DNA from: Leptolyngbya sp. FACHB-8
Lineage (GTDB): Bacteria; Cyanobacteriota; Cyanobacteriia; Elainellales; Elainellaceae
DNA length: 64,000 nt
Direction: 5' to 3'
Assembly: GCF_014695575.1 (NCBI RefSeq)
Contig: NZ_JACJOO010000084.1
Location: 186,001 to 250,000 of the forward strand
The notes under the pieces are model-generated. The model worked only from the letters and a program-made list of their open reading frames with translations, had not been told where the DNA came from and searched no databases. Made by a program: the position numbers and the translations under genes. Positions within the stretch are counted from its first letter, which is position 1. Every line of letters starts with the position of its first letter. Shown in pieces: positions 14,807 to 64,000 of this stretch.

Positions 14807-14863
14807 TAGTTTTCAAGCAGCTTCTCACACCCCATTCATGACTCCTATAATTCGGCAATCCAA

Positions 14864-14995
14864 CAGCAATTCTCATTTTGAAATCCAGCCCGAAAACCGC
14901 TCGCCATAAGCGAGCGGTTTTCGGGCTTCAAAGCCGAGAGTTCGTGCCTGTAGGGCACGAACTCTCGGCTTTGAAGCTCATAATGAGAATTGCTA
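14864..14995 (+). mobile_element. Family A Y-shaped palindromic element with 9-bp target duplication
   Basis: The ends AGCAATTCTCATT (14865-14877) and AATGAGAATTGCT (14982-14994) form a 13-bp closing stem. Inside are two hairpins: arm 1 at 14888-14904/14910-14926 (17 bp, 5-nt loop) and arm 2 at 14926-14948/14954-14976 (23 bp, 5-nt loop). The 9-mer GCAATCCAA is present directly outside both ends (14855-14863 and 14996-15004), a perfect direct repeat of the kind left by transposition. It encodes no protein. Confidence 0.88.
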
Positions 14996-15025
14996 GCAAT
15001 CCAAACTTACAGCGCGAGTTGATAT

Positions 15026-45362: not shown

Positions 45363-45458
45363 CAGCAATTCTCACGATGAACTCTCGGCTTTGAAGCCTG
45401 AAAATAGCCCGCCGAAGGCGGGCTATTTTCAGGCTTCAATTCAAAACGAGAATGGCTG
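45363..45458 (-). mobile_element. Family A element with one arm deleted, minus orientation
   Basis: CAGCAATTCTC at left and GAGAATGGCTG at right are the terminal repeats. Arm 1 is intact (GCCTGAAAATAGCCCGCC, GAA loop, complement). Only the distal half of arm 2 remains (GAACTCTCGGCTTTGAAG). The flanks ACCCCACGA (45354-45362) and ACCACACGA (45459-45467) match at 8 of 9, consistent with an aged 9-bp duplication. Confidence 0.75.
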
Positions 45459-54322: not shown

Positions 54323-54391
54323 AAAGCCTATGAAATGAATGCTTTTGTGCCTAAACGGCACAAAAAGCTCGTTTAATGTGGGTTTAGAGAA

Positions 54392-54465
54392 CGGGACTGA
54401 CGGGGCTCGAACCCGCAACTTCCGCCGTGACAGGGCGGTGCTCTAACCAATTGAACTACAGTCCC
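54392..54465 (-). tRNA. tRNA-Asp (GTC)
   Basis: On the minus strand GGGACTG pairs with CAGTCCC. The D-arm, the anticodon stem CCGCC/GGCGG with loop CTGTCAC (anticodon GTC) and the T-arm with GTTCGAG are all intact. The discriminator is G and CCA is not encoded. An identical gene lies 394 bp upstream at 54859-54932. Confidence 0.95.
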
Positions 54466-54562
54466 AGACTGCCCGCTGCGCCCTCAACAAGTCGTTCAGA
54501 ACGCTTCGGATAATCAGCATATCAAACAATAGCGACAGTATTCAACTAATTTCAAAGATTAC

Positions 54563-54694
54563 CAGCAATTCTCATTTTGAAATCAGGCCCGAAAACCGCG
54601 CGCCTTCGGCGCGCGGTTTTCGGGCCTCAAAGCCAAGAGTTCACGCCCTACGGGCGTGAACTCTTGGCTTTGAGGCCCATACTGAGAATTGCTG
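54563..54694 (+). mobile_element. Family A element with perfect 9-bp duplication, between tRNA-Asp genes
   Basis: CAGCAATTCTCA (from 54563) and TGAGAATTGCTG (to 54694) are the ends. Arm 1 is an 18-bp stem GCCCGAAAACCGCGCGCC with TTC loop. Arm 2 is a stem of about 23 bp with TCAAAGCCAAGAGTTCACG. AAAGATTAC lies directly outside both ends (54554-54562 and 54695-54703). Confidence 0.9.
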
Positions 54695-54786
54695 AAAGAT
54701 TACTCATGGCTATTTATAGCCTTTGTCGCGCTAGCTGGGATATCAGGCGTGAGAGAGCAGTGCTCCCACTCCTGGCATCCAGCAGC

Positions 54787-54858: not shown

Positions 54859-54932
54859 CGGGACTGACGGGGCTCGAACCCGCAACTTCCGCCGTGACAG
54901 GGCGGTGCTCTAACCAATTGAACTACAGTCCC
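54859..54932 (-). tRNA. tRNA-Asp (GTC), second copy
   Basis: Identical over all 74 nt to the copy at 54392-54465. Same anticodon GTC and discriminator. It is transcribed first if both are read from one promoter, but a palindrome and a mobile element lie between the copies. Confidence 0.95.
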
Positions 54933-63724: not shown

Positions 63725-63744
63725 CAAACTCATCATTCAGGCTC

Positions 63745-63787
63745 AAAAATGAAAAGCGCGGCACTTCATGCCGCGCTTTTCATTTTT
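63745..63787 (+). terminator. 19-bp perfect terminator hairpin after ctaB
   Basis: AAAAATGAAAAGCGCGGCA and its complement pair perfectly around CTTCA. The right arm ends in CATTTTT and so has a T-run. It starts 20 bp after the ctaB stop. Confidence 0.85.
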
Positions 63788-63855
63788 GGCTTTGAAGCCC
63801 GAAAACCGCTTGCCTTCAAGCGGTTTTCGGGCCTAATTCCATACTGAGAACTGCT
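63788..63855 (-). mobile_element. Truncated family A element, minus orientation
   Basis: CCATACTGAGAACTGCT at the right is one family A end. Arm 1 is complete (CCCGAAAACCGCTTG and complement). GGCTTTGAAG at the left is the start of arm 2, after which the sequence runs into the ctaB terminator. The rest of arm 2 and the other end are missing. Confidence 0.72.
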
Positions 63856-63865
63856 AACTTCTTTT

Positions 63866-63997
63866 CAGCAATTCTCATTTTGGAATCCAACCCGAAAATA
63901 GCCCGCCTTCGGCGGGCTATTTTCGGGCTTCAAAGCTGAGAGTTCCTGCCCGAAGGGCAGGAACTCTCAGCTTTGAAGCTCATACTGAGAATTGCTG
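63866..63997 (+). mobile_element. Family A element at the window edge
   Basis: CAGCAATTCTCATTTTG (63866) and CATACTGAGAATTGCTG (to 63997) are intact ends. Arm 1 is an 18-bp stem CCCGAAAATAGCCCGCC with TTC loop. Arm 2 is a stem of about 23 bp TTCAAAGCTGAGAGTTCCTG with GAA loop. Left flank ACTTCTTTT; the right flank begins ACT before the window ends, agreeing with a 9-bp duplication so far as visible. Confidence 0.85.
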
Positions 63998-64000
63998 ACT

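Follow-up and report, generated by a model that had tools for sequence, protein, structure and literature searches.

The 132-bp element on the plus strand at positions 63866–63997 of the window, the 64,000-nucleotide stretch of DNA analysed here (G000:C83:186001-250000), is very probably a non-autonomous transposable element (MITE) that was moved by the transposase of a separate insertion sequence with the same ends, leaving 9-bp repeats. It is short and non-coding, carries terminal inverted repeats, is flanked by a duplication of constant length, and occurs in many copies, including identical ones in different contexts. An autonomous partner exists in relatives and in other phyla, and the insertion sequences of relatives have identical ends and 9-bp repeats.

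An earlier note, made from the raw sequence, had placed the element at these coordinates, with ACTTCTTTT to its left (63857–63865) and ACT as the last three bases of the window (63998–64000); coordinates and letters are correct. Assuming a 9-bp duplication, it had predicted that the six bases past 64000 would be TCTTTT. The contig, part of a 95-contig draft genome of 6.93 Mb, runs on past the window end and reads exactly TCTTTT there (read after 64000 as TCTTTTGGAAAAG and as TCTTTTGGAAAAGTATACAAACC). ACT inside the window and TCTTTT outside it together complete ACTTCTTTT, so that the two flanks are identical over all 9 bp. The six predicted bases would match by chance in about one case in 4,096, and those already within the window matched too.

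Organisation of the element

The left terminal inverted repeat, CAGCAATTCTCATTTTG (63866–63882, plus strand), recurs unchanged at the left end of each partner insertion sequence with these ends. The right repeat lies on the minus strand at 63981–63997 (CATACTGAGAATTGCTG in forward letters) and is identical to the other end of a 1,420-bp insertion sequence in genome G023. The two repeats share 12 perfect bases and match at 16 of 18 positions overall. Between them are two perfect hairpins, hairpin 1 at 63891–63927 with a 17-bp stem and a TTC loop, and hairpin 2 at 63927–63979 with a 25-bp stem and a GAA loop. In this sub-family, hairpin 2 also contains end-like sequences at 63937–63969 (TGAGAGTTCCTG / CAGGAACTCTCA), 9 bases apart and with 2 mismatches to the real end, which could be a relic of a tandem-copy junction or a product of chance.

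The element sits between a heme o synthase-like gene (ORF end L001:1395) and rpsN. At 63744–63788, a separate perfect 20-bp hairpin (CAAAAATGAAAAGCGCGGCA / TGCCGCGCTTTTCATTTTTG) separates that heme o synthase-like gene from an older copy's remnant, described below. This hairpin could be a terminator native to the locus, or it could mark the point at which the older copy was truncated.

Copies in the genome and the 9-bp duplication

By pattern search, the 6.9-Mb genome holds about 75 full-length copies (73–75) with perfect 12-bp ends. Allowing up to one mismatch, the 12-bp end occurs 395 times, against 19 for a reversed control. All 132 bases of the window-edge copy are found again at G000:C5:22203-22334, in an unrelated context, and about 40 further copies can be aligned to it.

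For the duplication we considered pairs of ends with up to two mismatches each. Among 115 distinct pairs in this genome, 73 were flanked by an exact 9-bp repeat and 90 by one with at most one mismatch, where 0.8 would be expected from shuffled right flanks; these pairs include false inner pairs, so the true fraction with a duplication is higher. The 112 pairs from other genomes gave 58 and 69, respectively, against 0.6 expected by shuffling. The longest exact flank repeat was 9 in nearly all pairs, and the pooled 9-mers showed weak base preferences. The 9-bp rule of the earlier note is thus borne out in this genome, in other genomes and, as described below, at full-length insertion sequences with the same ends. 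Apparent copies of 82–96 bp in this genome are mostly false pairs in which an end is joined to the end-like arm of hairpin 2.

Three more copies lie within the window. Two are full-length and on the plus strand, at 14864–14995 (exact duplication GCAATCCAA at 14855–14863 and 14996–15004) and at 54563–54694 (exact duplication AAAGATTAC at 54554–54562 and 54695–54703). The third, at 45363–45458, is a shortened, decayed copy of 96 bp whose duplication has one mismatch. The copy at 54563 is flanked by two minus-strand tRNA-Asp (GTC) genes of identical sequence (54391–54466 and 54859–54932), and no empty site could be obtained from the tRNA-Asp duplication around it. Nor did we find an empty orthologous site elsewhere: the only genome of the same genus is too diverged, at 72% identity over rpsN, and has none of these elements, leaving no usable empty site. 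Contigs C32, C48, C51 and C14 start inside a copy of the element (first ~113 bases); the assembly was probably interrupted by the repeat itself.

Insertion sequences with the same ends

Insertion sequences of 1.36–1.89 kb in other cyanobacteria and in a Chloroflexi MAG are bounded by these ends and by a 9-bp duplication, and encode a DDE-type transposase of about 440 aa. Ends of the form CAGCAATTCTCATTTTG...CAAAATGAGAATTGCTG with exact 9-bp repeats were found in Nostoc edaphicum (1,890 bp), Anabaena cylindrica (1,876 bp), Microcystis viridis (1,867 bp), Calothrix PCC 7716 (1,865 bp) and Pseudanabaena biceps (1,418 bp). An Anaerolineae MAG carries a 1,364-bp insertion sequence with ends CAGCAATTCGAAATATG and an exact 9-bp repeat. 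In Gloeothece PCC 7822 the insertion sequence (WP_013335080.1, annotated by NCBI as 'ISNCY family transposase') has the same ends and no duplication. Searching plasmids with the bare ends returned cyanobacterial records only, several of which carry a 1.77–1.89-kb insertion sequence with these ends. A more distant relative of the transposase, at 34% identity, is found on a Saccharobesus plasmid, with ends CAGCAATTATTGGT and an exact 9-bp repeat.

G023, which belongs to the same taxonomic family as the window genome, has nine copies of a 1,420-bp element, eight of them with exact and differing 9-bp repeats; the G023 transposase is a 446-aa protein. Of the two ends of this element, CAGCAATTCTCATTTTGG corresponds to the left end of the window element and CCATACTGAGAATTGCTG to its right end, and their asymmetry mirrors that of the MITE, with CATTTTGG on one side and CAGTATGG (the reverse of CCATACTG) on the other. 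The 9-bp repeat is missing from five partner copies in relatives (L315–L319), which indicates that some insertions were rearranged or lost the duplication.

Across nine homologues, the transposases have invariant acidic residues spaced as a DDE triad (D130, D219 and E344 or E346 of P0001); their match to Pfam DDE_Tnp_1 is weak. A homologue is present in 11 of the 27 named genomes that bear MITEs with these ends, Verrucomicrobia and Chloroflexi MAGs included. Two internal-deletion forms of the partner, 1,015 bp (L244:5001-6015) and 317 bp (L241:5001-5317), have exact 9-bp duplications. They are intermediates between insertion sequence and MITE, in which the shortening of such an element can be seen directly.

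In the window's own genome, as represented by the 95-contig draft, neither single-sequence nor profile searches returned a homologue of the transposase; the same searches detect homologues at 46–53% identity in other genomes. Seven DDE_Tnp_1 transposases of this genome were considered as partners and rejected, since they do not carry the ends of the family. Pairs of ends 1.8–3.3 kb apart at the first loci were likewise rejected as insertion sequences, having no matching 9-bp flanks. Two of these stretches, when read, contained no transposase, and one holds prfA and rpmE-like genes.

We infer that a transposase of this family moves the window MITE, and that such a transposase was formerly present in this genome and has since been lost. 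In the mechanism we propose, the two 17-bp ends, enclosing a non-coding interior with two perfect hairpins, would be recognised by the DDE-type transposase of a separate 1.4–1.9-kb insertion sequence with the same ends, which would excise or copy the MITE. Joining to a target whose strands are cut 9 bases apart, followed by gap repair, would then produce the 9-bp direct repeats.

The absence of a helper today would also suit a history in which the element moved between scattered copies through homologous recombination or gene conversion and the 9-bp repeats are left over from old insertions, and at least one copy (L016:1528-1659) looks mosaic, with hairpin arms from two sub-families. Conversion would account for homogenisation but not for new sites with fresh 9-bp repeats, and the copy identical to the window element over 132 bp has different flanks and a context of its own. 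We therefore consider spread by recombination very unlikely and favour transposition in trans.

Insertions next to older copies

To the left of the window-edge element, at 63789–63856 on the minus strand, is the truncated remnant of an older copy, consisting of one end (TGAGAACTGCTA) and hairpin 1. The remnant stops exactly where the ACTTCTTTT repeat starts, 9 bp from the new copy, and its reverse complement resembles an intact sub-family copy at L085:7186-7317. At six sites, three of them in this genome and the other three in Verrucomicrobia MAGs, neighbouring copies in the same orientation are separated by exactly 9 bp. C65 reads ACACTACAA-copy-ACACTACAA-copy-ACACTACAA, its two copies belonging to different sub-families, and is therefore not the product of a simple tandem duplication. 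C74 and C69 deviate from this register by about one base. With some 110 copies in 6.9 Mb, we estimate that about 0.004 insertions would fall by chance at one exact position adjoining an end. The window site is an event of the same kind, a new copy 9 bp from an older end, here beside a remnant. Insertion at such positions probably reflects recognition of the older copy's end as a target.

Evolution of the internal hairpins

Across 62 distinct copies, 98.7% of the hairpin pair cells hold standard pairs. Both sides have changed in 25 of 41 pairs (11 of 17 in hairpin 1 and 14 of the 24 counted in hairpin 2), giving 261 two-sided cells against about 79 in shuffles, counts that do not represent independent events as the copies are kin to one another. 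Slid versions of the pairing collapse. One-sided changes are rare, and so are G-U intermediates.

The loops occur in both orientations. In hairpin 1 we counted TTC 19 times and GAA 15 times, AAA 15 times and TTT 14 times; in hairpin 2 (63927–63979, columns 62–114 of alignment A1), GTA and TAC occur 19 and 15 times, and TTC and GAA 10 times each. When copies sharing the same stem were compared in pairs, the loop was inverted in 51 pairs and alike in 47 for hairpin 1, and inverted in 60 and alike in 90 for hairpin 2. Such inverted loops are a sign of template switching or of palindrome flipping. Hairpin evolution by template switching has been described as simultaneous multiple paired changes with inversion of the loop (spacer) (Monttinen and Loytynoja 2022, PMC8794818; PMC8604942), and one-step inversion of a three-base loop together with joint change of both arms is expected of template switching between inverted-repeat arms (PMC8794818, PMC8604942). 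The published cases share these two features and concern RNA genes and yeast coding sequence, whereas here the substrate is the interior of a multicopy MITE. The comparison of copies suggests that the interior hairpins evolve mainly in this way, with template switching copying changes from arm to arm and flipping the loop.

Paired changes of this kind could also mark a conserved regulatory RNA or terminator unit, duplicated genome-wide, in which the hairpins are functional and the flanking repeats incidental. The two perfect hairpins, their strong covariation, a fold z-score of −17.6 and the position between the heme o synthase-like gene and rpsN would fit such a unit. The element has no match in Rfam, however, and between 63300 and 64000 we found neither an intrinsic terminator (a G+C-rich hairpin followed by a T run) nor a promoter-like site. 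Loops inverted about half the time and the rarity of G-U intermediates fit a process at the DNA level better. Exact 9-bp repeats at most copies are unexpected from duplication of an RNA unit, and together with the insertion sequences that share the ends they largely refute this explanation, to which we assign scarcely any probability compared with transposition of a MITE.

Distribution across phyla

Scanning species genomes for the end pattern gave at least 102 stretches. Among the matches listed, these come from Cyanobacteria and from MAGs of Verrucomicrobia, Kiritimatiellae, Chloroflexi, Thermodesulfobacteriota, Methylococcaceae, Mariprofundaceae and others. The non-cyanobacterial genomes among these matches are all MAGs, and mis-binning could thus inflate the list of taxa. 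The Saccharobesus plasmid, derived from an isolate, supports the view that the transposase family truly occurs beyond cyanobacteria. Among cyanobacteria the distribution is patchy, with elements in 8 of 60 relatives.

MITEs of different phyla have the same ends around wholly different interiors. Of 18 representative interiors, which include three sub-families of the window's own family, 15 fold far better than dinucleotide shuffles (z below −3). Some interiors in other phyla (L131-L132, L163 and other JACQWK loci; L130, L186; L152, L204) resemble REP-type palindromes, with TAGTCCCGGCTTTAGCCGG, TTCGACAGGCTCAGCCTGAGCGG and GGGTGCCCTCACCCGG as examples. We give next to no credence to a REP/REPIN-like repeat spread by a single-strand (RAYT-type) transposase, for which this resemblance and the palindromic, intergenic, multicopy nature of the element would speak, as it is contradicted by the exact 9-bp duplications (RAYT-type mobilisation is not known to make a target duplication) and by true terminal inverted repeats common to a DDE-type insertion sequence.

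Element lengths in 15 families peak near 122 and 133 bp; periods of about 10 to 13 fit, and a jitter test favours the longer ones. A search by phylum added forms of 131 and 141 bp from a single lineage. In one MITE lineage (L287-L302; G057, G282, G372 and relatives), forms of 130–131 bp and 140–142 bp differ by about one turn of DNA. Length peaks near 122, 132 and 141 bp, and helical phasing with them, are suggestive only. As a tentative model, which we regard as possible though unlikely, one transposase family with nearly fixed ends would have repeatedly spawned independent MITEs in several phyla, with selection acting on interior architecture and not on sequence. What is selected would be a palindromic spacer of fixed length, with peaks at about 122, 132 and 141 bp that lie roughly one DNA turn from each other. 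Through phasing or hairpin extrusion, the spacer would bring together within the transposase two ends separated by less than the stiffness length of DNA.

Discussion

The Nezha MITE reportedly has 24-bp ends and an 8-bp duplication, compared with 9 bp here, a difference that would set the window element apart from it. As cited in PMC10969869, Nezha is an Anabaena/Nostoc element of about 130 bp with terminal inverted repeats (Zhou et al. 2008), and to that extent resembles the window element, a cyanobacterial MITE of similar build. The 187-bp MITE of Microcystis PCC 7806 is likewise a cyanobacterial stem-loop MITE, present in about 30 copies, but its ends (GGCTCTTCG), 8-bp duplication and ISL3-type helper differ and make it a separate family (PMC11448079).

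Cyanobacterial insertion sequences annotated as ISNCY share with the window MITE identical terminal 17–18 bp and 9-bp duplications in most related copies, and encode the presumed transposase; they are autonomous elements of 1.36–1.89 kb, whereas the MITE retains only the ends. The partner, with its DDE-type transposase of about 440 aa, is putatively of the ISNCY type, which has ISDol1 and IS1202 among its named subgroups; the assignment is taken from the NCBI annotation of one homologue. ISMae2 of Microcystis has been termed 'ISNCY-like' (PMC11448079). In the literature we found no mention of the 12-mer ends in this sense and no report of MITEs of this insertion sequence type. Elements of this kind are well known; this family and its partner are undescribed in the literature searched. 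The novel details are how widely the near-identical ends are spread, that palindromic interiors recur, and how often loops are inverted.

A prediction made blind from raw sequence has held true, and the family can now be linked to a likely helper transposase. Beyond the earlier note, the analysis adds the partner transposase, the older copy adjoining the element on its left and the wide spread of the ends. If the partner reading is true, 9-bp duplications at new sites would be expected to depend on CAGCAATTCTCA. The family is useful for asking how template switching keeps non-coding hairpins perfect. Its near-identical ends across cyanobacteria and several phyla represented by MAGs offer a test bed for how one transposase can give rise to many unrelated MITEs, and for why their interiors are mostly palindromic.
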